38,724 bases of DNA from contig NZ_JALM01000130.1 of NCBI RefSeq assembly GCF_000737195.2, positions 1 to 38,724 of the forward strand, read 5' to 3'. Source of the DNA: Sciscionella sediminilitoris. GTDB lineage: Bacteria; Actinomycetota; Actinomycetes; Mycobacteriales; Pseudonocardiaceae. The notes beneath the pieces were generated by a model. It did not search any database and was not told the origin of the DNA. It saw nothing but the letters and a program-made list of their open reading frames with translations. Below, piece after piece: positions 7,134-27,591 of the stretch (positions within the stretch are counted from its first letter, which is position 1; the number at the start of each line of letters is the position of its first letter). The translations under genes were made by a program, and so were the position numbers.

Positions 7134-8396
7134 ATGTCCACCCGACCGTCGACCGACACCGCTCCGGACACCACGGAGGATGGGCCCGCTCCGATGCCCA
7201 TGGACCGGAGCTGTCCGTTCGATCCGCCCGAGGAGTACCGGCGGTGGCGCGCGGAGGAACCGATCCGCCGGATCCTGCTGCCGAGCGGTGACCACGGCTG
7301 GCTGGTCAGCGGGCACGCCGAGGTACGGCAGGTGCTGACCGATCCGCGGTTCAGCCATCGCAACGACCTGATCGAACCGCCCGTGCCGCCGGTGCCGATC
7401 AGCGAATGGGTACCGACCCCGCCCGGGCGCGGCGATTTCAACATGATGGACGCACCGGAGCACACCCGCTATCGGCGCATGCTCGCCCGGTACTTCACCT
7501 CGCGGCGGGTCGAGCGGTTCGCCGGGCGGATCGCGGAGATCGCCGCCGAACAGGCCGAGAACCTGATCGCGCTGGGGCCGGGAGCCGATCTGGTCGCCGG
7601 GTACGCGGTCCCGCTCGCCGGCCGGGTCATCTGCGAACTGCTCGGCGTTCCGGACGAGGAACGGGCGGGGCTGCAGCGCGATATCGACGCCACCTTCTGC
7701 CTCACCGTGGATGTGCAGCGCGCCTACCGGTCCATCGTGCGCATCGGCGAGGCCATCGAGCGGATCGTCACGGCGCGACTGGCCGAGGAACACCCGCCCG
7801 GGGACGGTTCGGACATGCTCGCCGATCTCATCTCCCGCGAATCGGTGGACAGCGAGGAACTGTGTTCGATCACCGGGGTGCTGCTCATCGGCGGGATGGA
7901 CACGACGGCGAACATGCTCGGCCTCGGCGCGCTCGCCCTGCTGCGAAGTCCCGAGCAGCTGCAACGGTTCCGCGCCCAGCCCGGTCCGGCACAGGTGGAC
8001 GAGCTGCTGCGCTGGCTGACCATCTCGCAGTGGGGCGCCTCGCGAAGGGCCCTCGCGGATGTGGTGCTCGGGGCGGAACCGGACGGCTCCGGCGGTCAGC
8101 GCATCGCCGAGGGGGAACTCGTCGTGCTCGCGCTCAACGCGGCCAACCGGGATCCCGCGGTCTATCCGGAACCCGACCGCCTTGACCTGAACCGCCCCGC
8201 CGAGGGGCACGTGGCGTTCGGGCACGGCGTACATCTGTGCATCGGCCAGCATCTCGCCCGGACCACGCTGCGCATCGGATGGCAGACCCTGTTCTCCCGG
8301 CTTCCCGGTCTGCGCGAGGCTGATCCGGGCACCGATCCCCGGATGCGCACGGAGATGACCCACTACGGAGTCCACGAACTACCCGTCGCCTGGTGA
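7134..8396 (+). CDS. Cytochrome P450 monooxygenase
   Basis: A 420-residue bacterial class I P450, probably a tailoring oxidase of the polyketide or its sugar. Visible signatures are the I-helix oxygen-activating segment GGMDTT (Gly in the place of the usual Ala), the K-helix ExxR as ELLR, and the haem loop FGHGVHLCIG with Cys369 as thiolate ligand. The intact Cys shows it is a true haem enzyme, not one of the Cys-less P450-like helpers of glycosyltransferases. ATG 7134 follows GAGGAG at 7123-7128. It is divergent from the 2,3-dehydratase gene and convergent with the PAS-LuxR gene. Electron-transfer partners (ferredoxin, reductase) are absent from the window. The substrate cannot be told from sequence. 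Confidence 0.95.
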   Translation: MSTRPSTDTAPDTTEDGPAPMPMDRSCPFDPPEEYRRWRAEEPIRRILLPSGDHGWLVSGHAEVRQVLTDPRFSHRNDLIEPPVPPVPISEWVPTPPGRGDFNMMDAPEHTRYRRMLARYFTSRRVERFAGRIAEIAAEQAENLIALGPGADLVAGYAVPLAGRVICELLGVPDEERAGLQRDIDATFCLTVDVQRAYRSIVRIGEAIERIVTARLAEEHPPGDGSDMLADLISRESVDSEELCSITGVLLIGGMDTTANMLGLGALALLRSPEQLQRFRAQPGPAQVDELLRWLTISQWGASRRALADVVLGAEPDGSGGQRIAEGELVVLALNAANRDPAVYPEPDRLDLNRPAEGHVAFGHGVHLCIGQHLARTTLRIGWQTLFSRLPGLREADPGTDPRMRTEMTHYGVHELPVAW

Positions 8397-8411
8397 CGCG
8401 GGAACGGAAAC

Positions 8412-8448
8412 GGCGCCGCATGCCCGGCAGGACCGGCAATGCGACGCC
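8412..8448. terminator. Stem-loop between convergent P450 and PAS-LuxR genes
   Basis: GGCGCCGCATGCC (8412-8424) pairs with GGCAATGCGACGCC (8435-8448) with one mismatch and one bulged base around a 10-base loop. It begins 16 bp after the P450 stop. There is no T-run, as is common for GC-rich actinomycete terminators. It could serve both converging genes. Confidence 0.5.
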
Positions 8449-8491
8449 GTTCGGCGAACTCGGTGATTCTCGCCTGCTGAGCGGTCGAGCA

Positions 8492-8539
8492 CCCCAGTGC
8501 GTTACCCCAGTGTGCTGCCCCAGTCGGATTCGCCCCAGT
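8492..8539. repeat. Four iterated CCCCAGT repeats
   Basis: CCCCAGT occurs at 8492, 8505, 8518 and 8533, with spacings of 13, 13 and 15 bp. The first two copies share a longer ACCCCAGTG core. The array ends on the stop codon of the PAS-LuxR gene. Function unknown. Confidence 0.6.
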
Positions 8540-9285
8540 TATCCGTTCGCTCCGCGGACGGGCCGCACGGCTTCGGGAAGCACGCGGGGCGGCCAGGAAC
8601 CGAGACCCAGTACCCCGGCCGCGTAGGCGCGGGACACCAGCGCCGCCCGGTTGGGCGCCTTCAGCCGCCGCAGCATGGTCGTCACGTGGTACTCGACGCC
8701 CTGACGGCTCAGGTACAGCTGAGTGGCCAGCTGCACGGTGGACATTCCCTTCGCGATCCCCTCCAGGATCCGCGCGTCGAGTTCGGTGAGCACGCAGCCA
8801 CGGCCGGATTTGGCGTTCGCGAGTTCGGTGCTCGCCCCTTCGGCCTCACCGCCCCGCCCCGGGCGAACCAGCACCATCACCGCGGCGGCGCGCTGGGCGC
8901 CGTTGCGCACCGCGACCCCGGTCAGTTCCCCGGTGAAGACCGTGGAACACGGCCGTACCGCGACCATGCGATCGGTGAAACTGGTCCGGCGCCCGTCGGT
9001 GAGGCGTTCGAAGTGTTTGCGGAAGAGCGGATGACTGCCCGGGTGCAGGAATTCGAAGAAATTGCGCCCAAGCACGTTCTCCGGCTTGTGGTCGAGCACC
9101 CTGGCGAACTCGGGATTGGCGTCGTGCACGGCCAGATCGGGGCCGAGGCTGGCCATACCGAGTCCGGAATTCTCGAACAGCGACCGGAACAGTGCCTCAT
9201 CGTCGACCGGCGAACAACCGCCGAGCGCGGTTCTCTCAACGATCGAGGTCTCGCCGACGAACGTAGTTTGAGCGGAAATGGTCAC
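8539..9285 (-). CDS. PAS-LuxR transcriptional regulator (PimM family)
   Basis: A 248-residue regulator with an N-terminal PAS domain (about residues 28-130, containing the FENSGLGMA and NPEFARVLDH segments) and a C-terminal LuxR-type HTH (about 165-225, with KGMSTVQLATQLYLSRQGVE). This two-domain layout, and the HTH wording in particular, is that of PimM-type activators of polyene and other polyketide clusters. No receiver-domain phosphoacceptor is present. GTG 9285 is preferred because AGGAG lies 6 bases upstream in the transcript; the frame stays open a further 20 codons. Its 5' leader carries a strong hairpin (9308-9338). Likely a pathway-specific activator of the PKS and tailoring genes (inference). 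Confidence 0.93.
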   Translation of the reverse strand: MTISAQTTFVGETSIVERTALGGCSPVDDEALFRSLFENSGLGMASLGPDLAVHDANPEFARVLDHKPENVLGRNFFEFLHPGSHPLFRKHFERLTDGRRTSFTDRMVAVRPCSTVFTGELTGVAVRNGAQRAAAVMVLVRPGRGGEAEGASTELANAKSGRGCVLTELDARILEGIAKGMSTVQLATQLYLSRQGVEYHVTTMLRRLKAPNRAALVSRAYAAGVLGLGSWPPRVLPEAVRPVRGANG

Positions 9286-9307
9286 AGCACTCCTTACATT
9301 CGAATAC

Positions 9308-9338
9308 GGGAGGCACCCCGAGTATTGCGGTGCCTCCC
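9308..9338 (-). promoter_or_regulatory. Perfect 10-bp stem hairpin in the PAS-LuxR 5' leader
   Basis: GGGAGGCACC (9308-9317) and GGTGCCTCCC (9329-9338) are exact inverted repeats around an 11-base loop. The stem ends 22 bases before the GTG start, just before the Shine-Dalgarno. It may be a translational or transcription-attenuation element, a dyad operator, or a terminator of transcription arriving from the LAL operon; no T-run follows. Confidence 0.5.
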
Positions 9339-9584
9339 ACGGCATCGTGAGTGTTCTGCACCCCGCGGTCGGGGCGTGACCGGCCAGTCATCGGCGACTG
9401 TAACGAGTATTCGCAGGCACGGACAACGATCCCGGACCAACCCTGTGGTCACGGGAAATCCGGTCGGACCCCCGCCCCATCGGTTTATCGCGGTCCCCGC
9501 ACCAATAGCCGGATCGGACGCCCGATTTTGACCGTTTTCCCTGATATCATCCGAAGAACACACCGCGAATCGCACCGCGAGAGG

Positions 9585-9623
9585 GCCGTACCGCCCCGAA
9601 GGCGGGCGCCGTACCGCCCCGAA
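9585..9623. repeat. 16-bp perfect direct repeat
   Basis: GCCGTACCGCCCCGAA occurs at 9585-9600 and 9608-9623, 23 bp apart start to start, or about two helical turns. Its position upstream of the PAS-LuxR gene fits a tandem protein-binding site. Confidence 0.55.
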
Positions 9624-9755
9624 CCACAACCGAAGTATCAGCCGCGGAACGCCTCGCGGGCACGGAAATCAATGCCGCGTGCAGGAAGTTGCAACCGCCA
9701 AGGCAGTGAATTTCCGGTGTGCCGAGCGACCGAAAACGGGCGATACGAAGGAGTT

Positions 9756-12482
9756 TCAGCCGCGCCGCGACGAGTTCGCGAGTGTCTCGGCGAGTTCCGA
9801 ACGGCCCCGCACGCCGAGTTTACGATAGCACTGGGTGAGGTGTTTCTCTACAGCGCGTACACCGACCGCGAGTTCCTTGGCGATTTCCGGGTTCGAAAGA
9901 CCGGCGGCGACCCGTTCGGCCACCACGCGTTCGGTACGGGTCAGCGTGGAACCGGCCTGGGCACCCCGCCCCCTAGCGGGAACGGCACCGGCCATGGAAT
10001 CGAAGCAGCGCAAGGCTTCCAGGCGGTGCATCCGGTGCCCGTCGAGCGCGCTCTTGGCGACCGTGATCGTGGCCCGGTCCGCGCAGCCGCGGGCGAGCAG
10101 CAGGCCGCGCTCGAGGTGTTCGGTGGCCGCCGGGTCCGCGGTGTCGCGCAGATCGATACCGAGCGCCACCGAAGCCCGCGCGGCCTCACGCGCATTGCAG
10201 CTGCCCTCGAGCAGGCTGACCGCATCGCGGAGCAGCACGCGCCCCGTGCTGCCGCCGAGCAGCATCCCGCGAATGCGCAACACCCTGCCGAGCAGCCCGG
10301 GGGCGCCCCATTCCTGGGCGCGCAGGTGCTCGTCCGCGAGCACCTCCGAGGCGGCATCCACATCCCCGACCCCGAGCAGCGCCTCGGCCAGCCCCATCCG
10401 CCACGGCAGCACGGTCGGGTTGACCCAGCCGGACTGCTCGACGAGATCGCCCGCGATGCGGAACTGGTCCACGGCGCGCCGGTGCTCGCCCTGGCGGGTG
10501 GCGGTCATCCCGGCGGCGAAGGCGGCCCCGGCGACGTGGTAGGAGGTGGAGTCGCCGCGCCGGATGGTGGTGAGCACGGCTGAGGTGAGTTCCTCGTCGC
10601 CGAGCATGGTCACCGCGGGAATCAGGAAGGGGCTCAGGACCGCTCCCGCCCCGCTTTCCTCGATCTCGGCCAGCACGGTGCGCAGGTACCGCCGCGCCTG
10701 TTCCTGGTCGCCCCGGGCGACGGCGACGATGGCCCGTTCGCCCGCGAGCAGACACCGCGCGACCACCCGCCCGCGCGCCCGCGTGTCCTCTTCCACGGCG
10801 GCCAGCCAGAAATCGAGCTCCTCGAGTCGTTCGGCGGCGGCGAGGGTGGCCACGAGCAAGGGCAGCGCGGTGTGCGTGTGTTCCGCGGACGGCCGTTCGC
10901 GTTCGAGTACCGCCAGCGCTTGGCCTGCCGCTTCCTCGGCACCGAACCGAAGGGTGAGCATCCCGGCCAGCGTCATGACGGCGAGCTGTTCCCGGCCGCC
11001 AGCCGATTCGAGCAACGGCGCGGGATCCTCGGCGAACCGGCTGGTCACCTCGGCCAGCCGGGCGGGACTGTCCAGCTCCCCGTACCACTGCCGGGCCCGC
11101 ACGCGAGCGAGCAGTTCGCTGTCCTCGCCACCCGCGCACAGTTCCCGTTCGGTCCGGTCGAGCACGGGGCCGAACGAGACCGGCGCACCGTCCAGCGCAC
11201 CGGGGCTCAACCGGGCGAGCAGCACCGCGTGTTCCCGGCCGCCAGCCGCGAGATCGAGTGTCTGCGCGGCGTGCATCAACGAGGTGGGCACATCGAACTC
11301 GCGTTCGAACTCGACCAGATCCGCGAGCAGGGCACGGCGTTCGGGGTTGTCGAACGCGACCGCCATCAGCGCGGCGCGCAGACAGCGCGCACCGGCCTGG
11401 AGCCCGTCCTCCTCGGCGGTTTCCCGTGCCGCACGGCGGAAAACCTCGCCCGCCCAGGAGGCGGACTGGTCCCCGGCGGCGATCAGCGCCCTGGCGATCC
11501 ACCGATCGCGCACCCCGGCGCGGTAGGCGAACGCCGCGGCCAGCCCATGCCAGCGCGCGAGTGCCGCGGGCCCGCGCAGCCCCTCGAGCGCGTCCGCGAT
11601 GGCCGCATGCACCGGGCGCGGGCGTTCGATGCCGTCCACCAGTCCACACCTGGCGAGTGCGGTGAGCGCGACGGAAGCGGCCGCCGGGCCCGAGCCGGTC
11701 AGCTCCGCGACCGCGGCGGTGTCGGCCACCCCGTCGAGAACGACGACGGCGGTCAGCACGTCGAGCAGGGAAGCGGGCAGACCGGCGAGCGGAGCCCGGT
11801 AACGTTCGGCCAGCCACAGTCGGCCGGTGTCGGTGACCTCCTCCGCGGCGCGGGTGTGCGCATCGGCGGCGAGCAACAACGGCCGCCCGGTCACGGCGCG
11901 GGAACCCGGATCGCCGAGCTCGGCAACCGCGGCGGCGGACAGATCGGCCAGCGTGCACACGGCGGGCACCCTGGCGTACAGTTCGCGCCAGCTCTGACCG
12001 GCGAGCACCGGATCGAGATCCGTGCTGGAGAACACCACGAGGACCGGTGTGCCGTCCGCACCCTGGATCCGGTCCACGAACCCGGAAAGCGCGGCGAGCG
12101 AGGACTCGTCCGCCCACTGCACATCGTCGAGCAGGAGCACGAGCGCGCCCCGGGGCCGCGGCGCGCTCTCCCCCTCGAGCAGCGCGGCCGCCAAGTTACC
12201 CGGCTCGGTGCGATCCCATTGCCCGGCAAGGTAACGCTGGTTCGCCAGATCGTCGAGCAACGCGGCGAGCAGAGCACCGTCCTCGGTCCGTTCCTCGAAG
12301 CTCGCGCCCGCCCGGACCACCAGGTCCTCGGCCTCGTCGCAGCGGAGGGCGAACGCTTCGAGCAGTGCCGTACGGCCACCGCCACAGGGCGCGAGTATCC
12401 CGAGGACCGCACCGCGCCCGTCCCGCGCCGCGGCGAGCGCGCGATCGAAGGCGGCCAGTTCCGTTTCCCGTTCCAGCAGCAT
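9756..12482 (-). CDS. LAL-family LuxR regulator with Arg in place of the P-loop lysine (third gene of LAL operon)
   Basis: A 908-residue large ATP-binding LuxR-like regulator. The N-terminal AAA/STAND ATPase starts LLERETELAAFDRAL; the Walker A is APCGGGRT, with Arg37 where Lys is expected, and the Walker B LVLLLDDVQWAD is intact. A long TPR-like helical region follows, and a LuxR HTH closes the protein (about 840-900: LTRTERVVAERVAAGLSN, then NPEIAKELAVGVRAVEKHL). The length suits the family (about 900). ATG 12482 lies three bases after the stop of the preceding LAL gene, so translation is probably coupled. With HTH kept and P-loop Lys changed, ATP binding may be weakened or absent. Likely a cluster activator (inference). 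Confidence 0.92.
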   Translation of the reverse strand: MLLERETELAAFDRALAAARDGRGAVLGILAPCGGGRTALLEAFALRCDEAEDLVVRAGASFEERTEDGALLAALLDDLANQRYLAGQWDRTEPGNLAAALLEGESAPRPRGALVLLLDDVQWADESSLAALSGFVDRIQGADGTPVLVVFSSTDLDPVLAGQSWRELYARVPAVCTLADLSAAAVAELGDPGSRAVTGRPLLLAADAHTRAAEEVTDTGRLWLAERYRAPLAGLPASLLDVLTAVVVLDGVADTAAVAELTGSGPAAASVALTALARCGLVDGIERPRPVHAAIADALEGLRGPAALARWHGLAAAFAYRAGVRDRWIARALIAAGDQSASWAGEVFRRAARETAEEDGLQAGARCLRAALMAVAFDNPERRALLADLVEFEREFDVPTSLMHAAQTLDLAAGGREHAVLLARLSPGALDGAPVSFGPVLDRTERELCAGGEDSELLARVRARQWYGELDSPARLAEVTSRFAEDPAPLLESAGGREQLAVMTLAGMLTLRFGAEEAAGQALAVLERERPSAEHTHTALPLLVATLAAAERLEELDFWLAAVEEDTRARGRVVARCLLAGERAIVAVARGDQEQARRYLRTVLAEIEESGAGAVLSPFLIPAVTMLGDEELTSAVLTTIRRGDSTSYHVAGAAFAAGMTATRQGEHRRAVDQFRIAGDLVEQSGWVNPTVLPWRMGLAEALLGVGDVDAASEVLADEHLRAQEWGAPGLLGRVLRIRGMLLGGSTGRVLLRDAVSLLEGSCNAREAARASVALGIDLRDTADPAATEHLERGLLLARGCADRATITVAKSALDGHRMHRLEALRCFDSMAGAVPARGRGAQAGSTLTRTERVVAERVAAGLSNPEIAKELAVGVRAVEKHLTQCYRKLGVRGRSELAETLANSSRRG

Positions 12483-12485
12483 GGA

Positions 12486-14867
12486 TCACGCCCCGACGCC
12501 GGAAAGCCGTTCGGCGGCGACCGCACTGTGCTCGTACGGTCCCGTGGCCTCGCGCAGGGTGGCCAGGAGATCGGAGCGGGCGAGATAGGCCGCGGTTGTC
12601 ATGGCCAGCGGCAGCCGGGAGCGCAGCGGGGAACCGCGCAGCAGCGCGATCCCCTCCTCCAGTTCCGCCTCCCCGCCCGGACCGAGCACCAGCGCCCGCA
12701 CCACGAGAGCCCAGCCGAGGGCACCGGGTGCGGACCAGTCCCGCGCGAGCTCCGCCTCCCGGCCGGCCAGTTCCCGCGCGGCATCCAGTTCACCGGCCGT
12801 TGCCAGACCGAGCGCGGCATAGGACCGCCACGGCACCAGGGAGGGATTGAGGCAACCGCGGGCGGCGAATCCGTGGCCACTGCGCCGAAACGCCGCCGCG
12901 GCGTCCAGCCAGGTCCCACTGGCGAGGGCATGACAGCCCCGGGTGAACTCGAGCCGGTCCCCGGACGAACCGAGGCCGTTGCGGGGCGCGCCGTCGAGCC
13001 AGCGACCGGCGCCCGCGATGTCCCCACCGGCCAGGGCCACGTGCGCGGGGAGCGCGAACCGCAGCCCGGCGGCGTGCCGCGGCAGGAACCGGCCGGGCAG
13101 CGCACGCCGTGCCTCGGCGAGGGCACGGTGTGCCGAGAACAGCCTGCCGCGGCGCACTTCGAGGCTGGTGGCGGTGAACAGGGCCGTGGCGCGCACCGCC
13201 GGTGCCCCGGTGCCGTCCATGTTCGCGGTCAGCGCGGTGAGCGCGGCACCCGCCTCGTCCAGCTCCTCGGCGATGACGAGCGCCTGACAGGCCGCGATCC
13301 GGGGCAGTACCGCACCGCCGGGTTCCAGCCCCCGCCTGGCGAGCGTGCGGGCCCTGGCCAGCGCGCCACGCCCGCCGCGGCCCGCGACCAACTTGGCGAG
13401 CACCCCCGCCCTGCTGGGATCCGCCGGTGCTTCGGGAAGCCGCTCCACGGCGGGTTCCTCGAGCGCGGGCGATTCGTGTTCCAGATTCCGCACCAGCCAG
13501 TACAGGGCCTGCATGCACCCGCGTTCCTCGGCGCCGATCCGCGAGCGGACCGCCGCATGGCCAACGGTCACCCGGGAGATCCGGGTGGCGCAGCGGAGCA
13601 CGAGCTGTTCGGCCGCCCGCACCCGAATAGCGGCATCCGCACCGCAGGAGACCAGCCCGGCCAGTTCGCGGGCCGCGCGCGCCGGTCGCCCGGCAACGGG
13701 GTGGATCGCCTCGCGCAGCCGGAGATCATCGCGATCGCGCGCGGTCAGGCCGGGAATCCCGGCGGCCCGCGGCCCGTGCTGCCCGCCGTCGAGCGCCGCC
13801 CGGTGCAGCACGGGCCCGGTCCACGCGGCTCGGGTGCCCGGTTCGAGCGCGAGGATGTCGGCAACGGACCGGTCGGGGGCACCGCGCCGATAGGCGAGCT
13901 CGGCGGCCCGCTGCACGAGTTCGGCGAGCGGGGGCAGCTCCGGAAGGCGCGCGGGCAGCTCGTAGAGCACCCGATGGGCGAGCGCCGGTTCGCGCAGTCG
14001 CGGCTGTCCCGGTACGCACAGCCGGATCGAGCTCAGCACCTCGAGCGCGGCGCAGGCGGCGAGGTCGCCGAGACCGACGAGCGCGCCCGCGGCGTCCAGG
14101 GGCAGCGCGCCCGCGGTGACCGCGAGACCGACCGCGAGTCTCGCGGATTCCCGCGGCAGCGCGGAAATCACCGTGGCCTCGAAGCGTTCACGGGCACGGC
14201 GGATGCACGATTCGAGGTGCTCCGCGCTCGGCTCGCCCCGGTCCCCGAGCTCGCGGGCGACCGCCGCGATGATCGCGGGAACCCCGTGCGCCAGCGCGTG
14301 CAGCTGCTCGGCACGGGCCCGTGAACCACCGAGCATCGCGTGCACGGCATCCACCGAGAGCGGACCGGGCCGCAGTCGCCGCGCGAACGGTTCCGGAACC
14401 CGCGGTCCCGGCCAGCGGCGCAGCACGGCGAGCAGCGGCAGGCGCAGGTTCCGCCGCACGGCGAGCTCCACCGCCTGCCGTTCCCGCTCGGGCACCCGCT
14501 GCAGATCGGGCACCGTGAGCACGGTCGGGGCGTGGCGGGCCCGCTCGGCAAGGCCACGGGGCAGCGCGGGCAGTCCGCCCTCGGCGATCCGCTCGACCGC
14601 GGGCAGCAGGCTCGGGCCGTCCGCCGTGTCCACTGGGCGCAGTTCGAGGACCGCCCAGCCCGAGGCGCGGGCGATCCGGGGAGCCGAACCGAGCAGCGTT
14701 CCGGCACCGAACCCCGGAGGGCCCTCGACGAGCAGGACTCGTGGTTCACCGGGTGCCCGGCCCGCCGCGTTCTCCGGTGGACGGAGGAACCGCCGCAGCC
14801 GCTCGTCCTGCGCGGCGCGCTCCACCCACATCGCGGGATCGGCCGCCGCGCCTCCCCCGCCCGTCAC
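12486..14867 (-). CDS. Degenerate LAL-like protein lacking P-loop lysine and LuxR HTH (second gene of LAL operon)
   Basis: A 793-residue protein with the LAL layout (NTPase-like N-terminus, winged-helix-like middle, long helical TPR-like repeats) but missing two defining parts. The P-loop reads GPPGFGAGT, with Ala55 for Lys and Gly for the next Ser/Thr. The Walker B counterpart is TVLTVPDLQRVPE, with Pro for the first acidic residue. The protein ends ...YEHSAVAAERLSGVGA with no LuxR HTH. The frame is uninterrupted, so this is not an obvious pseudogene. GTG 14867 overlaps the upstream stop as GTGA and has GGAGG 8 bases before it; an in-frame GTG at 14897 is possible. Placed between two HTH-bearing paralogs, it may act as a partner or antagonist through its TPR-like region (inference). 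Confidence 0.85.
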   Translation of the reverse strand: MTGGGGAAADPAMWVERAAQDERLRRFLRPPENAAGRAPGEPRVLLVEGPPGFGAGTLLGSAPRIARASGWAVLELRPVDTADGPSLLPAVERIAEGGLPALPRGLAERARHAPTVLTVPDLQRVPERERQAVELAVRRNLRLPLLAVLRRWPGPRVPEPFARRLRPGPLSVDAVHAMLGGSRARAEQLHALAHGVPAIIAAVARELGDRGEPSAEHLESCIRRARERFEATVISALPRESARLAVGLAVTAGALPLDAAGALVGLGDLAACAALEVLSSIRLCVPGQPRLREPALAHRVLYELPARLPELPPLAELVQRAAELAYRRGAPDRSVADILALEPGTRAAWTGPVLHRAALDGGQHGPRAAGIPGLTARDRDDLRLREAIHPVAGRPARAARELAGLVSCGADAAIRVRAAEQLVLRCATRISRVTVGHAAVRSRIGAEERGCMQALYWLVRNLEHESPALEEPAVERLPEAPADPSRAGVLAKLVAGRGGRGALARARTLARRGLEPGGAVLPRIAACQALVIAEELDEAGAALTALTANMDGTGAPAVRATALFTATSLEVRRGRLFSAHRALAEARRALPGRFLPRHAAGLRFALPAHVALAGGDIAGAGRWLDGAPRNGLGSSGDRLEFTRGCHALASGTWLDAAAAFRRSGHGFAARGCLNPSLVPWRSYAALGLATAGELDAARELAGREAELARDWSAPGALGWALVVRALVLGPGGEAELEEGIALLRGSPLRSRLPLAMTTAAYLARSDLLATLREATGPYEHSAVAAERLSGVGA

Positions 14868-17488
14868 GGCTCGGCCTCCACCCGGGTTTCCAGGCACACC
14901 GCGGGAAAGGCGGTCAGCAGCTCGGCGCGGCGCCGGGCACCGAGCTTGCGGTACACGTGGGTGAGATGCAGCTCGACCGTGCGCACCGTGACGGTCAGCC
15001 GCTTGGCGATCTCCCGGTTGGTCAGCCCGCGACAGGCGAGCTCGGCGACCTGGTGTTCGGAGGAGGTGAGCACGTTCGGGCAGTCGAAGCTCGGGGCGGG
15101 CATCCGGCCGCCCGCGGCACGCAAGGCTTCGTGTGCCCGCCCGGCGAGCGCACCGGCCCCGGCCCGGGTCGCGTTCCGCACCGCCTCCCGCAGCACCAGC
15201 CGCGCCTCCCGCCCGGATCCGGTGCGCGCCAGCAGATTCCCGTACCGGATCCGGGCCTCGATGGCCTCGAGAGGCAGGCCGAGACCCGCGAGCCGTTCTG
15301 CGGTGGACGCGACGAGCTCACGCCCGCCGCCGCCGAGCAGCACGCCGTCCGCCAGTTCGAGCAGGGCGTTCGCGTGCGCGGTCGGCCATTCGCGCACCCG
15401 CTCCCGCACCCCGGCCAGGACCTCCTTCGCCTGCTCGGTGTGCCCATCCTCGTGCAGTGCCAGCACGAGCTCGAGCCAGCCCGAAACAGCCATCGGGTTG
15501 CGTACTCCGACCGCGCCCGCGATCCGTTCCATGCGCCGCAGAATCGGCACCGCATCCGCGGGACCACCGCGGGCGCGCGCGATCCGGGCGTGCACCTCGA
15601 GCCGGGCGAGGTCGAGCCACCAGGATTCCCCGGCACCGGTCGCTTCCGCGGGATCGAGCTCCCCGAGCAGCCCGGCTGCCTCCTCGACGGCCCCGGCGAC
15701 GCAGAGCGCGCGGGCCAGTACGGCGCCCGCGAACTCGGCGATCCGCCACCCCGCCTCGCGGGCGAGCGTGTGCATCCTGCGCAGCATCCGCAGCGCCCCG
15801 GGCACGTCACCGGAGTCGAGCAACCACTGGGCGCGATAACAGCCGAGCACCGCCTCGTCGGGACCGCACGGATCGACGGCGTGCGCGGCGACCGCGTCCA
15901 CCGCCTCCCGGTGGGCGCCGCACAGCCACAGCGCCTGCGCGGCGTACAACGTGGTCGCCGCCAGTCCGGGACCACCCGCGAGGGCGCGCCGGGCCATGAT
16001 CGCCACCTGTTCGGGAGTGCAGTCCCCGGCAAGCGAGGCCAGCAGCACGCGCATCGCGAGGGCACGGCGGCCCGCGACGGTCACCCCGATCAGCTCGACC
16101 TTCTCGTGCTCCTCCACCAAGGCCTGGTCCACCCCGCCCACACAGCGCAGGAACCGGCGCGCCGATTCGAGAACCGCGTGCGATTCACCCGCATCCTGCC
16201 CGGCATCGCGCGATTCCTCGTCGAGCAGCGCCAGACCGGAACACGCCCGGCCGACATACGCGAAGGACAGGGCGATCTCCACGGCGACCGCCGAGCGGTA
16301 GGTACCGGAGAAGGCGGACAGCGCACCGCCCAGATGCGCCGCGGTGCCCGCCGGATCCACGTGCGCCCACGCCTGAACGAGCCGCACATCGTTCGGGGCC
16401 GGGACGGGATTGGCCGGGTCGAGCTCGCTCGCGGCGCGCAGCCACCGCAGATGATCCAGCCATGGCAGGAAATCCGCGTTGCGGATGCCCTCCTCCACCG
16501 ACCAGCGCACCGCCTGCACCATCCACAGTTCCCTGCTCGGGGTGGCGCGCACGAGCTGCGCGGCGATCTCGGCAGCCGGGCGCCCCGCGTCGGAGAGTCG
16601 TTCCGCGGCCCGGTACCGCCAGCGGTCCATGGCCGCGGCATCGATCCCGGCCAGTACCTGCGCGCGAACCTCGGCGTCGAAGGGGTGCACCCGGCCGTCC
16701 TCGTCCAGCCGCACCCGTTCCCGTTCGCCGAGCCTGCGCAGCGCCTCGGCCAGCGGGGCGGTACCGATTCCGGCCACCGCGGCCACCATCGACGGGCTGT
16801 CCCCGTCCAGCACGGCGACCGCGCGGAGCACGTCCGGGACGGGGGCACGCTCCGCCGTCGTGGTCGCGTTCGGTTCGTCCGCGGTGCGCCGCCATACCGC
16901 AGCGGCCCGGTGATCCCGTTGGCCCGCAAGCGTTTCCGTTCCCGCCAACCGGATACTGCTCGCCCCGATGCCACCTTCGAGCTCGGCGAACGGTCCCGGA
17001 GCGGCCACCGCGCCGAGGCTGTCGCGCACCAGTACCACGAACAACGGCAGCGTACGCACCCTGCGGAACAGCCGGTGCAGCCAGGCGAGCGAGACGGCAT
17101 CGGCCCGCTCTCCGTCCTCCACCACCAGCGCGACGGTCCCGGAACGCAGCTCGGCGAGCACCGGTTCGGTCCAGGCGGCGAACAGTTCGTTCCGGGCAGC
17201 CGCGCCGATCGGCTCCTCGGTTCCGGCGGGCCCCAGCAGCGCGGTGGCCATGGCTCCATCGGTCACCGGATCGGTACAGCGCACCCGCCGCACCTTCGCG
17301 TGCGGGAGCCGGGCGAGCGCCTCGGTGACCACTGTGGACTTTCCGGAACCGGCCGGGCCGGACAGCACGACCAGCGCGGCGGGCCGGCCCGGCCGGGGGC
17401 AACGCGCGACGAGCGCATCGACCTTGTCTTGGGCAACGGACCGTGGTGCCTCACCGGCCCGGTTTCCCCCCGGCCGATCGCTGGCCAT
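14864..17488 (-). CDS. LAL-family LuxR transcriptional regulator, canonical (first gene of LAL operon)
   Basis: An 874-residue large ATP-binding LuxR regulator. Walker A GPAGSGKST is intact (Lys50), followed by a weaker Walker B (TVALVVEDGERADA), a TPR-like helical region of about 500 residues, and a C-terminal LuxR HTH (about 805-862: LTSSEHQVAELACRGLTN, then TNREIAKRLTVTVRTVELHL). ATG 17488 is supported by GGAGGAG directly upstream. It leads the three-LAL operon and is divergent from the MDR/KAS III/SDR operon across a 456-bp AT-richer gap. Such regulators (e.g. PikD-type) commonly activate macrolide and polyene clusters. Confidence 0.93.
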   Translation of the reverse strand: MASDRPGGNRAGEAPRSVAQDKVDALVARCPRPGRPAALVVLSGPAGSGKSTVVTEALARLPHAKVRRVRCTDPVTDGAMATALLGPAGTEEPIGAAARNELFAAWTEPVLAELRSGTVALVVEDGERADAVSLAWLHRLFRRVRTLPLFVVLVRDSLGAVAAPGPFAELEGGIGASSIRLAGTETLAGQRDHRAAAVWRRTADEPNATTTAERAPVPDVLRAVAVLDGDSPSMVAAVAGIGTAPLAEALRRLGERERVRLDEDGRVHPFDAEVRAQVLAGIDAAAMDRWRYRAAERLSDAGRPAAEIAAQLVRATPSRELWMVQAVRWSVEEGIRNADFLPWLDHLRWLRAASELDPANPVPAPNDVRLVQAWAHVDPAGTAAHLGGALSAFSGTYRSAVAVEIALSFAYVGRACSGLALLDEESRDAGQDAGESHAVLESARRFLRCVGGVDQALVEEHEKVELIGVTVAGRRALAMRVLLASLAGDCTPEQVAIMARRALAGGPGLAATTLYAAQALWLCGAHREAVDAVAAHAVDPCGPDEAVLGCYRAQWLLDSGDVPGALRMLRRMHTLAREAGWRIAEFAGAVLARALCVAGAVEEAAGLLGELDPAEATGAGESWWLDLARLEVHARIARARGGPADAVPILRRMERIAGAVGVRNPMAVSGWLELVLALHEDGHTEQAKEVLAGVRERVREWPTAHANALLELADGVLLGGGGRELVASTAERLAGLGLPLEAIEARIRYGNLLARTGSGREARLVLREAVRNATRAGAGALAGRAHEALRAAGGRMPAPSFDCPNVLTSSEHQVAELACRGLTNREIAKRLTVTVRTVELHLTHVYRKLGARRRAELLTAFPAVCLETRVEAEP

Positions 17489-17944
17489 CAACTCCTCCCC
17501 CAATCCACGCCGATGTAAGACTTTTTCCACCGAACCAACCCAGGATGGCGTCAGTAAACCATATAAGTACCCCATCGGGTGTAACAGGAATGGAAACTGA
17601 CGCCCCTTGCAGATTCCTGCAAATCCCCTCGTCAGCGGGATGAAATTCCAAAAAGCGATAGCATGCCGATAATCATCAGATATTGACCATTTGGCTCGAT
17701 TCGGACAATTGCCTCGGTTTGTACACCCCTGTTTTTCTCCCGCCGCGCCGTCGAATCCAGCGGGCCGTTCCTGCTTTTCCCGCATGCCAGGCAATCGAGC
17801 CGCCACGACCACCGGCCCCGGCGGCCGGACCGGCACGGCCGGCAAAGACTAGGTCAACTACTGGAATCGGCTTCCGCTGCTACCTGGGCGTTCCGCTCGC
17901 CTGCCAGAGTCCATCGAGAGTCCATCAAGGACGGAACAACTGGT
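17489..17944. promoter_or_regulatory. 456-bp divergent control region between LAL operon and MDR/KAS III/SDR operon
   Basis: Much more AT-rich than its surroundings, with no gene. It contains a 9-bp inverted repeat with a 40-bp loop (GGCGTCAGT 17547-17555; ACTGACGCC 17596-17604), a compact palindrome TTGCAG-ATTC-CTGCAA (17607-17622), and TTGACC at 17683-17688, a fair -35 for rightward transcription with a poor -10 counterpart near 17705. These suit a regulated bidirectional promoter. Confidence 0.5.
17607..17622. promoter_or_regulatory. Perfect palindrome TTGCAG-N4-CTGCAA
   Basis: Six-base exact arms around ATTC, 119 bp upstream of the canonical LAL start, inside the divergent control region. 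Candidate regulator-binding dyad. Confidence 0.4.
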
Positions 17945-19132
17945 ATGGAGTTTGGTCCAATGCTCAAGACCGACGCCTGGGTTCTGCACCCCGGACAGGA
18001 TGGCGCCGCGCCCGCACGGACGACCGGCGAAGCACTCAGCCGTGAACAGTTCGCACTCGGCGAATTGGGCGACAACGAGGTGCTGGTGGAACCGCTGTAC
18101 GGGTCCTGGGAGGCGAACCTGGACCACGCGCTGTCCCGCAGCCCGATCGATGTGTGCCGGGCCCGGGGCGAGGACGCGGTCATCATCGGGAACCTCGGCG
18201 TGGTGCGGGTGCTGCGCACCGGATCCTCGCCGCGCGCGGAATCCTTCCAGGAGGGCGATATCTGCCTGGTGATGCCCTTCGGGAAGACCGACAGGCACGG
18301 TTACGCGGAACTGGTCTACGCCTACGACATGCCCGGCACCATCGGCTTGCTGGCCAAGCAGACGAAGCTCGAGGCGGACATTCTGCTTCGGGTGCCGCCG
18401 CTGACCCCGTACAGCCTGCCGCAGTGGGCCGCCTATGCCCGGTATTTCACTGCGTGGGACAACTGGCGCACGGCACTGCGTTGCTGGCAGGCTCAGCTGC
18501 CCGACGAACGGCCCGCGGACCATCTGGTGTTCGGCTGGGGCGGCGGGGTGACCTTCGCCGAGATGCTGCTCGCCCGCCGCGCGGGATTCCGCGTCGCCAT
18601 GACCACGAGTACCGATGAACGCATGGACATGTTGCGGCGCAACGGCATCACCGGGGTCGACCGCAGGCTGTTCCCCGATCTGGTGCACCGCCCCGAACTC
18701 GCCGGGCAGGACGCCGAGTACGACGCGCGGCACCGGGCCGCGCAGAAGGAGTTCCTCCGGACCATCGGGGAACTGAGCGACGGCGCGGGTGTGGCGATCT
18801 TCATCGACAACATGGGAGCCCCGCTGCACCGCGCCACGCTGAAGGCGCTCGCCCGGCAGGGCGTGCTCACCACCTGCGGCTGGAAGCAGGGCATGAGCAC
18901 GACCTCACTGCGAGCGTCCGAGTGCATCGGACGGCACCTGCACGTGCACACGCATGTCTGGCGGCTCCAGGACTCCGCGACGATTCGCGATCACCAGGAG
19001 AACACCGGCTGGATCCCGGACATCGACGAAACGAAGATCTACGGTTTCGACGATATCCCAGCGCTCGCCGAGGAATATTCGATCGGAAAGCTGGACACCT
19101 ATTTTCCGATCTTCCAAGTGAATCCCGTCTGA
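17945..19132 (+). CDS. MDR-superfamily dehydrogenase/reductase, distantly crotonyl-CoA reductase-like
   Basis: A 395-residue medium-chain dehydrogenase/reductase. A GroES-like N-terminal half (about 1-150: LVEPLYGSWEANLDHAL, then GNLGVVRVLRTG) precedes a Rossmann half with the nucleotide loop FGWGGG (residues 196-201) and a segment VLTTCGWKQGM near 310 typical of the MDR fold. The usual catalytic-zinc Cys/His set is not evident, which favours an enoyl or quinone reductase type. The closest familiar theme is crotonyl-CoA carboxylase/reductase, but this protein is shorter (about 445 is usual) and lacks its recognisable motifs, so carboxylation is not claimed. ATG 17945 has AAGG at 17927-17930; another ATG lies at 17960. 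First of three co-directional genes with KAS III and SDR. Likely reduces an enoyl-thioester for a special acyl unit (inference). Confidence 0.75.
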   Translation: MEFGPMLKTDAWVLHPGQDGAAPARTTGEALSREQFALGELGDNEVLVEPLYGSWEANLDHALSRSPIDVCRARGEDAVIIGNLGVVRVLRTGSSPRAESFQEGDICLVMPFGKTDRHGYAELVYAYDMPGTIGLLAKQTKLEADILLRVPPLTPYSLPQWAAYARYFTAWDNWRTALRCWQAQLPDERPADHLVFGWGGGVTFAEMLLARRAGFRVAMTTSTDERMDMLRRNGITGVDRRLFPDLVHRPELAGQDAEYDARHRAAQKEFLRTIGELSDGAGVAIFIDNMGAPLHRATLKALARQGVLTTCGWKQGMSTTSLRASECIGRHLHVHTHVWRLQDSATIRDHQENTGWIPDIDETKIYGFDDIPALAEEYSIGKLDTYFPIFQVNPV

Positions 19133-23484: not shown

Positions 23485-24726
23485 GTGCCGGAGAAAGCCC
23501 CGTCCGTTCCCGTTGTGGATCTCCGTGACCCCGCGATCCTCGATGATCCGATGCGGGGCTACGACCGCATCCTCACCGAGTCGCCGATCTGCTGGGCGCG
23601 ACTGCCGAGCGGCGAGGAAGGCTGGCTGATCACCCGCGCCGACGATGTGCGCGCCGTGCTCTCCGATCCGGCCGTGCGCAACGATCCCACCGGCCTGCCG
23701 GGGCAGGGCGCGCAGACCCAGGAGGAGACCTTCCTGGCACTGGGCACGCCGCCGGAACACCTGCCCTATCTGCGGGCGAGCCTGCTGAGCCTGGACGGGG
23801 CCGAGCACACCCGGCTGCGGCGCAGCATCAGCCACGCCTTCAGCACCTCCCGGGTCGCGAAGCTGCGCCCACGGGTGCAGCAGCTCGTCGACGAACTGCT
23901 CGATGGGCTCGATTCCGCGTCGGGTGCCGGGAACACTCCGGTGAACCTGATCGACGAGTACGCCTATCCCCTTGCCATGACCGTGGTCTGCGAACTGGTC
24001 GGGGTGCCGGAGGCGGACCGGACGGACTGGTGGCGCTGGGGCAAGGTGCTCGTCAGCGGTACCCCGCAGGAGGCGACGGCCACGCTCGGCGAGATGTTCG
24101 CCTACTGTCACACGCTGATCGACCGGCGCCGCGCCGAACCGCGCGAGGACCTGATCAGTTCCGTTGCCGCGCAAGAGGAACTGACCGATGTGGACGCCGT
24201 CGCGGTCCTGGTGTTCCTGGTACTCGCCGGGCACGAGACGATGGCGCATCTGCTCTCCAATGCGGCGCTGGCCCTGATGCGCGATCCCGCCCACCGGGAG
24301 CTGCTGCGTACCGAGCCCGAACTCTGGCCCGCCGCGGTGCGTGAACTGGTGCGCACCGACGGCCCGGTGCAGCTGGCCCGGCTGCGCTACGCGGCGACCG
24401 ATATGGAAGTCGGCGGGGTGCGGATCAGCGCGGGGGACGCGGTGCAGGTGGTACTCGGCGCGGCGAACCGGGATCCGGCGCGATTCGCGCACCCGCGCGC
24501 GGCCGATGTGCGGTGGCAGGCCGAACACGGCCCTCGCGAGGGCAACGTCGGATTCGGCTGGGGACCGCATTTCTGTCTCGGGGTCGCCCTGGCGAAGCTG
24601 GAGGCGGAAATCGCGCTGCGCGGCCTTTTCGAACGGTTTCCCGCGGTGTCCCCGGTGACCGAGCCGGAGTGGGTGCCGTTGCCCCGCGGCAGGCACCGGG
24701 TCACCCTCGACGTACGGCTGCGCTAA
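23485..24726 (+). CDS. Cytochrome P450 monooxygenase (second)
   Basis: A 413-residue bacterial P450 with I-helix LAGHETMAH, K-helix ELVR (ExxR) and haem loop FGWGPHFCLG with Cys364. GTG 23485 is chosen because GAAGG lies upstream (23471-23475) and no closer in-frame start exists; the frame remains open far upstream but as Arg/Pro-rich sequence without a domain. The N-terminal VPVVDLRDPAILDDPMRGYD is typical of CYP105/107-like enzymes. Its stop codon overlaps that of the convergent serine hydrolase gene (CTAA). Likely a tailoring hydroxylase or epoxidase; site unknown. Confidence 0.94.
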   Translation: MPEKAPSVPVVDLRDPAILDDPMRGYDRILTESPICWARLPSGEEGWLITRADDVRAVLSDPAVRNDPTGLPGQGAQTQEETFLALGTPPEHLPYLRASLLSLDGAEHTRLRRSISHAFSTSRVAKLRPRVQQLVDELLDGLDSASGAGNTPVNLIDEYAYPLAMTVVCELVGVPEADRTDWWRWGKVLVSGTPQEATATLGEMFAYCHTLIDRRRAEPREDLISSVAAQEELTDVDAVAVLVFLVLAGHETMAHLLSNAALALMRDPAHRELLRTEPELWPAAVRELVRTDGPVQLARLRYAATDMEVGGVRISAGDAVQVVLGAANRDPARFAHPRAADVRWQAEHGPREGNVGFGWGPHFCLGVALAKLEAEIALRGLFERFPAVSPVTEPEWVPLPRGRHRVTLDVRLR

Positions 24727-26258
24727 CCGGCCGGATAGGCGAAGGCGCCGACCGGCATGGTCAGGTCGGCGCTGGAGGCCCCGCACTCGAGCATCCACAG
24801 TGCCGCGGCGGGGCCGAGTTCCCTGCCGAGCGCGCCGAGCGCCGCCGGATCGGGGGCAAGCGCCTGCGCCTGTGCCACACCGCCCACGAACGCGTCCGGG
24901 TCCCAGCCCTCCGGTTCGGGCCCGCCGAGGCAGCGCGCCCCTCGGGTCATCGCGTCCAGTGTCGCGGCCGGGAGTGGTTCGGTCACACCGAGAAGCCCGT
25001 GGGTGCGTTCCCCGGTCAGAATCCCCATCCAGCGCGAGCTTTCCTGGCTGGGCCGGGGACCGGTCCAGCGTGGCCGCCCGTCCAGCGCGCCGAACGTTTC
25101 CGGAGAACCGGATCCGGCCCAGTTCCCGGCCCAGGCGACGGCCAGCCCCGGGGCGCTGCGGGTGGCCGGATTGTGGAACCGGGCCATGTCCCAGCGGTTG
25201 CCGACGGCCACGGCGGCGAGGTCGTGCCGCGGCCAGACCCGCGCCTCCCACCAGAATCCCCAGGGGAACGCCGCGGTGTGCCCCCACCACCAGTCCTCGC
25301 CGAGCTCCGGATCGGCGAGCTCGAAGGTCAGCCCGGAGAACGAGCGGACGCCGTGCGGGCTCGGGCGGGGAACGCGCGGGGCCACCATCGCCGCGAGCGT
25401 GTCCCGCCGGACGATCCCGGCCTCGCCCGCGGTGGTGCGCAGCAGGGATTGCAGCAGCCGCCCGAAATCCGCCACGCTGGTGTGCATGCCGACGCCCGGA
25501 TAGGCCGCGGTGCGCAGTGGCGGGCTCGGCACACACCAGTCACCGAAGGCCATGTATCCCGTGGCATCGTGCGGCGCGGAGTTCGGTGCGGAGTGCGGTG
25601 CGGATCCGGTAGCCCACGGATTCCGGGTGCCGTCCGCGATACTCGTGTTCCGCATCCCGTTCGGGGTGAACACTTCCCGCTGTACGTGGGCACCGTAGGG
25701 TTCCCCGGTCAGGTGTTCGACGGCGCCACCGAGCACCCCGACGCCGAAACTGGAATACGAGTATGGACCGGGTTTCGTCCGCAACGGCAGTGCCCCGCCG
25801 TACTCCACCGCGCGACCGGTTTCGTGGCGGCGCCGGACGTAGTCGAGCACCGGTTCGGCCGGTGCCTCGTGCGCGGTGGCCGTGACGATATCGCCGTAGT
25901 AGCCGCCCTGGTGCGCGGCGAGCATGGCGGCGGTGACCGGTTCCGGTTCCGGGCCGCGCAGCCCCGAGGGCAGCAGCCGGTCGATCGGCGTGTCCGGTTC
26001 GGCCATTCCCGCCTCGACCAGCCGCATGAAGGCCAGCCCCGTCACGGGTTTGGTGAGCGAGCCCGCGGGCGCGGGGGTCTCGGCGGTCATCGGTGTTTCC
26101 GTTGCCAGGTCGGCGAAACCGGTGGCGGCGGTGCGCAGTTCGGTGCTGGTGGCCACCGCGACCGCGACTCCGGGGGTCCCGGTGACCGCGGCCAGCCGGG
26201 GCAGCACGGTGTCCAGCGCCGCCATCGTGTCCTCGAGCATGCGCGGCTTTCCGCTCAC
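24723..26258 (-). CDS. Class C beta-lactamase-like serine hydrolase/acyltransferase
   Basis: A 511-residue serine beta-lactamase/esterase-family protein. Ser67-x-x-Lys70 (SLTK) and Tyr168 in YSYSSFG supply the catalytic pieces, with Ser170 where classic enzymes have Asn (YxN); a HT-x motif (GHTAAF) stands where KTG is usual. No signal peptide is seen, so it is probably cytoplasmic, unlike resistance beta-lactamases. About 110-130 extra residues follow the core. The start GTG 26258 overlaps the glycosyltransferase stop as GTGA. The family includes esterases and acyl-transferring members such as LovD, so O-acylation or deacylation of the glycosylated product is possible (inference). Confidence 0.85.
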   Translation of the reverse strand: MSGKPRMLEDTMAALDTVLPRLAAVTGTPGVAVAVATSTELRTAATGFADLATETPMTAETPAPAGSLTKPVTGLAFMRLVEAGMAEPDTPIDRLLPSGLRGPEPEPVTAAMLAAHQGGYYGDIVTATAHEAPAEPVLDYVRRRHETGRAVEYGGALPLRTKPGPYSYSSFGVGVLGGAVEHLTGEPYGAHVQREVFTPNGMRNTSIADGTRNPWATGSAPHSAPNSAPHDATGYMAFGDWCVPSPPLRTAAYPGVGMHTSVADFGRLLQSLLRTTAGEAGIVRRDTLAAMVAPRVPRPSPHGVRSFSGLTFELADPELGEDWWWGHTAAFPWGFWWEARVWPRHDLAAVAVGNRWDMARFHNPATRSAPGLAVAWAGNWAGSGSPETFGALDGRPRWTGPRPSQESSRWMGILTGERTHGLLGVTEPLPAATLDAMTRGARCLGGPEPEGWDPDAFVGGVAQAQALAPDPAALGALGRELGPAAALWMLECGASSADLTMPVGAFAYPAG

Positions 26259-27460
26259 CGCAGGAGCTCGAGCAACCGGTTCGCGGCCACTTCCGCCCCA
26301 TCGGTGCGGATCTCGGTGCCCACCTGCCTCGCCCGGTCCCTGGCTTCGGGTGCCAGGACCGTTTTCAGCGCCGCACTCAGGGATTCCCCGGTCACCGCGG
26401 GGCCGTCGAGCGCCACCCCGATGCCCAGGTCCGCCACCCGTCCGGCCCAGTATGGGGTGTCCGCCAGCTGGATGGCCGCCACCACCTGCGGTGTGCCCGC
26501 TTTCGCCGCCGTCAGCGTGGTTCCCGCTCCTCCGTGGTGCACGACGGCGGCCACCCTGGTGAACAGCCGCTGCTGGTTCACCTCACCGAGCGCGAAGCAG
26601 TCCTCGTGCTCGCCGATGACCTCCAGATCCGCGCGGTTGCCGGAAACGAGCGCCCGTCTGCCGTGCGCGCGGATCGCCTCGACCGCCCGGCGGACGATGT
26701 CCGGGGACGGGCGCACGCTGCCGAAGCCCACGTAGACCGGCGGCTCCCCCGCGTCCAGGAACGCCACCAGCTCGTCCGGAAGCGGGCGCTCGTCCGGCAG
26801 CGTCCAGGCTCCCGTCTGCACCACGTCGAGGTCCGGGATTTCCCGCCACGGCCCCAGAACCGGGTCCGCGGCCAGCCACGGCCGTTCGGTGTAGACGTGG
26901 TCGCGCACATTGTCCACCGGGGGCAGGCCGAGCGCGGACCGATGGCCGTTGAGCGTCTCCTTGAACTGCGCGTTCACCTGCTCGGCATCGCGGCGCCACA
27001 GTGCCGGATTGTCGCTCTCCTCCGGTTCCGGCCAGCCCGAGCGCGGCGGCGGCGCGTGGTGCGGTGAGGGCAGGTTGATCGCCGAATAACTGGTGTACAC
27101 ATAGGGAATTCCCGCGGACTCGGCAACGGACCGGGTGGCGATCTGGGCCAGTCCGGCCGCCACCACGGCGTCACAGTCCTCGAACGCCGCGGGAAAGGCG
27201 GCGAACTGCGCGTCGACCAGTTCGGTCCGGTACCGGGCGAATTCCTCGGCCGATGGCGGTGTCTTCCGGCGCATCAGGTTTCCCACCGGTGGACCGACCG
27301 GGACCAGCGGTATGCCGAAACCGCCCAGTTGCCCGGCGAAATCCTCGTCCGAGGGGGTGCACATCCGCACCTGTACGCCGAGTGTCCGGAGCCGTACCGC
27401 GAGTGCCACCAACGGTTCGACGTCGCCACGTGTCCCGTACGTGGACAACAGCACTCGCAT
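26255..27460 (-). CDS. GT-B glycosyltransferase (vancomycin GtfA-E type, family GT1)
   Basis: A 401-residue glycosyltransferase, the typical length of the family. The N-terminus MRVLLSTYGTRGDVEPLVAL is that of vancomycin-type natural-product glycosyltransferases; the nucleotide-sugar domain has YVGFGSVRP (about 240) and HHGGAGTT (residues 308-315), followed by an AAIQLADTPYWAGRV donor segment. ATG 27460 follows GAGAGGGG. It probably moves a deoxysugar from its NDP form onto the polyketide. No Cys-less P450-like helper, as needed by DesVII-type enzymes, is present. Coupled with the serine hydrolase downstream and divergent from the nucleotidyltransferase. A self-protective glycosylation role cannot be excluded. 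Confidence 0.93.
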   Translation of the reverse strand: MRVLLSTYGTRGDVEPLVALAVRLRTLGVQVRMCTPSDEDFAGQLGGFGIPLVPVGPPVGNLMRRKTPPSAEEFARYRTELVDAQFAAFPAAFEDCDAVVAAGLAQIATRSVAESAGIPYVYTSYSAINLPSPHHAPPPRSGWPEPEESDNPALWRRDAEQVNAQFKETLNGHRSALGLPPVDNVRDHVYTERPWLAADPVLGPWREIPDLDVVQTGAWTLPDERPLPDELVAFLDAGEPPVYVGFGSVRPSPDIVRRAVEAIRAHGRRALVSGNRADLEVIGEHEDCFALGEVNQQRLFTRVAAVVHHGGAGTTLTAAKAGTPQVVAAIQLADTPYWAGRVADLGIGVALDGPAVTGESLSAALKTVLAPEARDRARQVGTEIRTDGAEVAANRLLELLR

Positions 27461-27507
27461 GGACGCCCCTCTCGTTCCGTTGACACAGCAGCCTCCTGTG
27501 CCCATCC

Positions 27508-27537
27508 ACACTATCCAGATGTTCCCTCTCGCGTGAA
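27508..27537 (-). promoter_or_regulatory. Possible promoter of the glycosyltransferase operon
   Basis: On the minus strand TTCACG (27537-27532) and TAGTGT (27513-27508) are separated by 18 bases, a fair sigma-70-type pair about 48 bp before the start. On the other strand a perfect TTGACA lies at 27480-27485 but without a good -10. Confidence 0.3.
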
Positions 27538-27591
27538 GCAGTCCCCGGTGGCTACGGTGGGCCTTCCCGATCGACGGTGGAGGACCAATCG

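Follow-up and report, generated by a model that had tools for sequence, protein, structure and literature searches.

The 38,724-nucleotide stretch of Sciscionella sediminilitoris DNA analyzed here (the window) carries a gene for a LAL homologue with a dead P-loop and no HTH, which by tree, profile scores, and gene order is the middle member of an old and widespread three-LAL cassette, placed here in a macrolide-type PKS cluster. Loss of the Walker A lysine is the rule for this middle position and no peculiarity of the window locus. Compared with it, loss of the HTH is a rarer, derived step. We propose, at about even confidence, that the middle protein may serve, without ATPase function, as one subunit of a hetero-oligomeric LAL switch and would interact there with the other two LALs.

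A LAL homologue without lysine and HTH

The trio is transcribed from the minus strand (9756-17488) in the order first, middle, third, and a PAS-LuxR gene follows it (Table 1). By gene content, these four genes are a nystatin-type regulatory cassette. The reading frame of the first LAL opens at a TTG at 17845; we preferred the ATG at 17488, which matches the length of homologues better. The preliminary description had claimed Ala55, a degraded Walker B, and a missing LuxR HTH for the middle protein, and all three are borne out by the sequence and by Pfam. The P-loop stretch reads GPPGFGAGT, with Ala55 at the lysine position, and the Walker B stretch is TVLTVPDLQ in the middle protein versus LVLLLDDVQ in the third, which leaves the middle protein one Asp. 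With E values up to 1, Pfam returned only a subthreshold AAA_16 match for the middle protein and no GerE; both neighbors have GerE and AAA_16 above the Pfam cutoffs. Its placement "between two LAL regulators" is right in that both neighbors are LALs. However, the third LAL is itself without the P-loop lysine (Arg37).

The open frame of 793 codons, the coupled start, and the short downstream gap were described correctly as well. The junction between the first and middle genes is GTGA, in which the GTG start of the middle gene overlaps the TGA of the first, and the TGA of the middle gene is followed by TCC, a 3-base gap, and the ATG of the third gene. The middle protein thus stops before the HTH would start. 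An HTH hidden in another frame near the gene end, a concern raised earlier, is absent from all six frames of 12301-13000, where the best score was 1.3 bits. The open frame alone is weak evidence here because a frame of 1150 codons is open on the opposite strand too. What counts as real evidence is homology over the whole length of the protein.

Table 1. Features of the regulatory cassette in the window
Feature	Position	Strand	Remarks
PAS-LuxR regulator	8539..9345	-	PAS_4 and GerE above Pfam cutoffs
Third gene, LAL with HTH	9756..12482	-	Arg37 in P-loop
P-loop of third protein	12369..12392	-	APCGGGRT, residues 31-38
Middle gene, P-loop-dead LAL homologue without HTH	12486..14867	-	793 amino acids
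TPR-like helical-repeat region of middle protein	12543..13742	-	residues ~376-775; AlphaFold2 model
Walker B equivalent of middle protein	14505..14525	-	TVLTVPD, residues 115-121; Pro for first acidic residue
Walker A equivalent of middle protein	14700..14723	-	GPPGFGAG, residues 49-56
Codon 55 of middle gene	14703..14705	-	GCC (Ala) where Walker A Lys is expected
First gene, canonical LAL	14864..17488	-	GPAGSGKST P-loop; GerE HTH

The neighborhood is a glycosylated type I PKS cluster of macrolide type, with genes for PKS (KS, AT, and ACP domains), an NDP-hexose 2,3-dehydratase, a P450, a ketoacyl-ACP synthase III, a thioesterase, and an EryCIII-like glycosyltransferase. Allowing up to three mismatches, the PAS-LuxR operator pattern gave 9 matches against 2.7 expected, and 9 was reached in 1 of 100 shuffles. 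No match to the pattern lay just upstream of the trio, and no sigma-70-like promoter was found in 8300-18100. At 24723-26258 and 26255-27652, both on the minus strand, a gene for a beta-lactamase-family serine hydrolase overlaps a glycosyltransferase gene. In NCBIfam, the glycosyltransferase is best matched by the rifamycin-inactivating Rgt, at a score below the cutoff; the pair perhaps has a role in self-protection or tailoring.

The cassette in other genomes

With the middle protein (P0001) alone as the query, matches at an E value of 1e-12 were found in 5 of the 41 genomes of a set that spans genus, family, and order and includes the own genome. All six matches outside the window (6/6) sit in the middle of three LAL genes arranged as in the window. 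The same query returned no relative from the named genome contigs and none from plasmids. An HTH-bearing middle protein matched 87 plasmid records, all with less than 60% identity, and 1 of them covers at least 80% of the query. A profile built from seven middle proteins found 21 named loci, 18 of them with a middle gene. At an E value of 1e-100, it also matched 17 of the 150 genomes from a single large genus; close grouping of some of these rows with named Streptomyces is our reason for presuming that the genus is Streptomyces. When 98 genomes were sampled evenly across the class, that level was reached by the own genome only.

The middle proteins compared below number 37 with that of the window, and near-copies occur among them, so that the rows are not independent. 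The preliminary description had proposed a search for orthologous trios in other genomes, and these exist: the order first-middle-third is kept on the same strand in 32 of 34 assessable loci, a count that leaves out G148, G162, and G196, each with a neighbor lost at a contig end. The two exceptions are Mangrovihabitans, where the first gene was not seen, and G272, where the third gene lies on the other side and on the opposite strand. In Amycolatopsis sp. NBRC 101858, the third gene is present. A small LuxR open reading frame of the PAS-LuxR type accompanies 15 of the 21 named loci; the PAS domain was checked by Pfam in the window and three related loci.

Three Streptomyces loci, from S. sioyaensis (L032), S. 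cellulosae (L033), and S. kronopolitis (L034), have first- and third-like LALs and no middle gene, possibly as a natural two-LAL version of the cassette. A genome can carry the trio twice. Contig 81 of the own genome (L014) has a second trio, nearly identical to the Sciscionella marina one; its middle protein has an HTH, and two more LAL genes with GRS P-loops lie downstream. Lentzea aerocolonigenes (L029 and L015) has one middle protein with an HTH and one without, which makes this pair a natural test of the role of the HTH.

In a FastTree phylogeny of 127 rows, a branch sets the first proteins apart from the rest, and the same holds for the middle and for the third proteins, with support values of 92, 100, and 100. 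This is the only tree method used; it flags the rows of the window as long branches, and the grouping of the middle proteins of the window and G272 as possibly false. Clade profiles built without the window rows gave the same assignment: P0001 scored 335 bits against the middle profile (36 rows) versus 118 against the first and 103 against the third, P0002 scored 531 bits against the third profile, and P0003 scored 408 bits against the first. Tree distances among the three groups correlate at 0.89 to 0.93 over 32 loci, as is expected for any co-inherited operon. The trio seems, from the trees, to be older than its copies in the sampled genera, and the three genes seem mostly to have traveled together.

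Walker A lysine and HTH by position in the trio

Not one of the 37 middle proteins has the Walker A lysine; the column holds R in 20, Q in 12, H in 2, A in 2, and L in 1. First proteins have K in 27, R in 8, and S in 1 (36 scorable of 38), and third proteins have K in 12, R in 24, and T in 1 (37 rows, the window's third protein being among those with R). Three rows were added later, namely the third protein of Amycolatopsis and the first and third proteins of S. cellulosae (K in the first; K and R in the third), and they are outside the tree, the HTH counts, and the locus patterns. With them, lysine is present in 28 of 37 first and 13 of 39 third proteins. On the tree, the lysine column changes 0 times within the middle clade, 3 times in the first, and 6 times in the third. 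Ser/Thr after the lysine is also gone in 13 of the 37 middle proteins, most of which retain the Walker B Asp or Glu, and the window's middle protein is among the most eroded.

Read per locus, lysine is kept in the first or the third protein in 28 of the 31 loci in which all three P-loops are readable (G272 is included, and Pseudonocardia endophytica, with its first gene cut, is left out). The patterns for first, middle, and third are K/-/- in 18, K/-/K in 5, -/-/K in 5, and no lysine in 3. The middle-less loci have lysine in both LALs (3/3, at most two independent cases, as S. sioyaensis and S. kronopolitis are close kin), which fits a division of labor within the trio. Lysine-to-arginine exchange as a general habit of LALs was considered and rejected, with lysine present in 15/15 of the non-trio LALs sampled, a background chosen by similarity to the middle profile and not at random. 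Three other full-length LALs of the own genome with a readable P-loop all have lysine. The pair of LAL genes next to the second Sciscionella trio carries Arg at the lysine position in both Sciscionella genomes, so Arg occurs outside the trio too and lysine loss is not confined to the middle position.

A good HTH is present in 28 of the 35 assessable middle proteins (G148 and G162, cut by contig ends, are excluded) and absent from 6: those of the window, L. aerocolonigenes b, P. endophytica, S. bungoensis, S. graminilatus, and G255. The Actinophytocola protein has a weak HTH of 21 bits. By parsimony, the losses need 4 changes, or 5 when the weak Actinophytocola row is counted. Among rows with intact ends, the HTH is missing from 0 of 37 first and 0 of 36 third proteins. 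The total branch lengths of the three clades are similar (25.1, 26.7, and 22.5), so the excess of HTH losses is not due to more sampled evolution in the middle clade.

Selection, erosion, and predicted fold

For eight pairs of relatives, Nei-Gojobori dN/dS values, calculated without a significance test, were 0.16 to 0.57 for middle genes, 0.16 to 0.53 for first genes, and 0.13 to 0.37 for third genes. In the three HTH-less pairs, the middle genes gave 0.50 to 0.57, their first genes 0.43 to 0.53, and their third genes 0.33 to 0.37. Some relaxation is thus possible in the HTH-less middle genes, whose values lie above those of the third genes. Values below 1, as purifying selection on the middle gene would give, are seen in the relatives; the window's own gene was judged indirectly, through conserved positions, because it has no close relative in the searched sets. 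Positions conserved in at least 80% of the other proteins are kept in the window at 109 of 162 in the first protein, 77 of 105 in the middle one, and 133 of 183 in the third (0.67, 0.73, and 0.73), and the end branches of the first, middle, and third proteins are 1.60, 1.63, and 1.39 long. By these measures, all three genes of the window's trio are divergent, and erosion has gone no further in the middle one than in the other two. That the middle gene has decayed beyond its two partners was rejected on the same grounds, retention and branch length being comparable.

G+C content at codon positions 1 and 2 is 0.84 and 0.60 in the middle gene versus 0.79 to 0.80 and 0.54 to 0.55 in the partners. 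In a rough drift simulation of 300 runs, the share of runs in which the frame stayed free of stops fell from 57% with 0.02 changes per site to 25% with 0.05 and 7% with 0.1; with 0.2, every run had acquired a stop. Decay, if any, would therefore be recent only.

An AlphaFold2 model of the middle protein, made with 19 sequences, has a mean pLDDT of 84.9 and shows an NTPase-like core, a helical middle part, and a long helical repeat. The helical-repeat region is mostly above 80, with a few blocks of 61 to 79, and only the two ends of the model are below 50. The best PDB match of the model is a STAND protein with TPRs at a low TM-score of 0.18 to 0.21, which may reflect a differing orientation of the domains.

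Proposed role and alternatives

In the reading we prefer, the three proteins would assemble through their NTPase and TPR regions, as STAND proteins do. The first protein would provide ATP switching and DNA contact; the third would also contact DNA and would act as a second ATP switch in some loci. The middle protein would be a non-switching subunit that gives an interface, a TPR sensor, or both; ATP hydrolysis would not be needed in it, nor, in the window's lineage, an HTH of its own. In the simplest mechanism, the middle protein would join the canonical first protein in a mixed oligomer; the middle HTH would then be dispensable, and this fits the repeated HTH losses. In MilR, function is reported to be abolished by K37A and by K37R (PMC5015266). 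Given this requirement, the absence of lysine from 37/37 middle proteins, and dN/dS values below 1, members of the middle clade probably do not switch on their own by the known mechanism. Findings that count against the subunit reading include the good HTH of 28/35 middle proteins, which could bind DNA alone, and the loss of lysine in most third and some first proteins, with 3/31 loci lacking any lysine.

NysRII, judged by gene order and numbering, is presumably a member of the middle clade. Its effect on nysRI and nysRIV is said to be positive. A close relative, WysPII, is described as having an HTH. For NysRII, full regulation of nysRI is described, and also regulation of nysRIV transcription together with NysRI and NysRIII (PMC9774167). 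All three Ttm LALs are reported there to act directly on some ttm genes (PMC9774167), while ttmRII mutants are cited as without effect on antibiotic production (PMC6207912), contrary to the network in PMC9774167.

The middle protein might be a dominant-negative or titrating inhibitor that, in mixed oligomers, keeps the first and third proteins off DNA or RNA polymerase until a signal arrives. A protein with no HTH and no ATP site does look like a poison subunit, and the tree asks for at least 4 losses of the HTH. However, the HTH is kept in most of the assessable relatives, and nysRI and nysRIV are described as requiring NysRII, probably the counterpart in position, for their regulation; with the sign of its effect reportedly positive, an activator subunit is likelier. 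We therefore think an inhibitor unlikely, and by analogy with NysRII the middle protein is more likely needed for activation than inhibiting. We hold equally improbable that middle LALs are nucleotide-independent DNA-binders acting on their own, the HTH-less ones being remnants with reduced or no function. The majority with an HTH, the direct action of all three Ttm LALs, and the dN/dS of the HTH-less genes at the high end of the range, above that of the third genes, agree with this reading. Yet those dN/dS values are still below 1 and near those of the first genes, and the window copy keeps its conserved core like its partners and is modeled as a folded protein.

The combined loss of Walker A, Walker B, and the HTH, and a G+C content at codon positions 1 and 2 above that of the partners, speak for a decaying pseudogene still free of stops. 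We consider this very unlikely nonetheless, since conserved positions and branch length equal those of the partners, the start and stop couplings are intact, and drift leaves room for recent decay only. The conserved trio, the dN/dS values below 1 in relatives, and the lack of extra erosion make a partner role likelier than decay. An assembly or sequencing error that hides the P-loop lysine or the HTH is hardly credible, and nothing in the data speaks for it: no HTH appears in six frames, the next gene begins 3 bases after the stop, and the state without HTH and lysine recurs in Lentzea, P. endophytica, S. bungoensis, and S. graminilatus, in which at most about 70 bases lie between the middle gene and a start codon of the third.

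A fuller version of the subunit reading, which we advance tentatively as possible rather than probable, is a switch in which three LAL proteins have fixed, separate tasks. It would combine an ATP-switching DNA-binder, an often non-switching DNA-binder, and an obligate pseudo-ATPase whose DNA-binding domain has been lost on at least four occasions because its partners give DNA contact in trans. If true, the trio would amount to a hetero-oligomeric STAND transcription factor of bacteria, in a group of regulators usually treated as self-sufficient ATP switches, and nystatin-type cassettes would act as a mixed complex. The proposal makes it testable why such clusters have three LALs and suggests which gene to vary for waking silent macrolide clusters.

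Comparison with known systems

The preliminary description knew of no described example of such a trio. LAL trios are in fact known as NysRI-III, AmphRI-III, and TtmRI-III, and a LAL trio with a PAS-LuxR gene is described for nystatin, amphotericin, candicidin, and tetramycin (PMC9774167 and PMC9942304). A middle LAL without lysine or without HTH was not found in the titles and abstract openings of open-licence papers among the matches listed. The introduction of PMC3282765 names NysRI/NysRIII and AmphRI/AmphRIII as LALs and not the RII proteins, so others may have noticed.

The window resembles the NysRI-IV, AmphRI-IV, FscRI-IV, and TtmRI-IV systems in having three LAL genes and a PAS-LuxR gene in a type I PKS cluster, and the C terminus of its PAS-LuxR protein is similar to the published consensus. 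Compared by description, NysRII is counted among the LAL regulators, whereas the window's middle protein has neither the lysine nor the HTH. MilR is likewise a cluster-situated, canonical LAL of a macrolide cluster, but it needs its Walker A lysine. MalT-type proteins are described as oligomerizing in the ATP-bound form (PMC5015266). With MalT and the LAL STAND ATPases, the middle protein shares size class, domain order, a helical-repeat C-terminal half, and homology to LALs; it differs in the missing Walker A lysine, the eroded Walker B, and the absent LuxR HTH. Heterodimeric ABC exporters with one degenerate site, as described, offer an analogy, in that one subunit keeps fold and interface but not catalysis, although they are an unrelated family and the complex of the LAL trio is here a proposed one.
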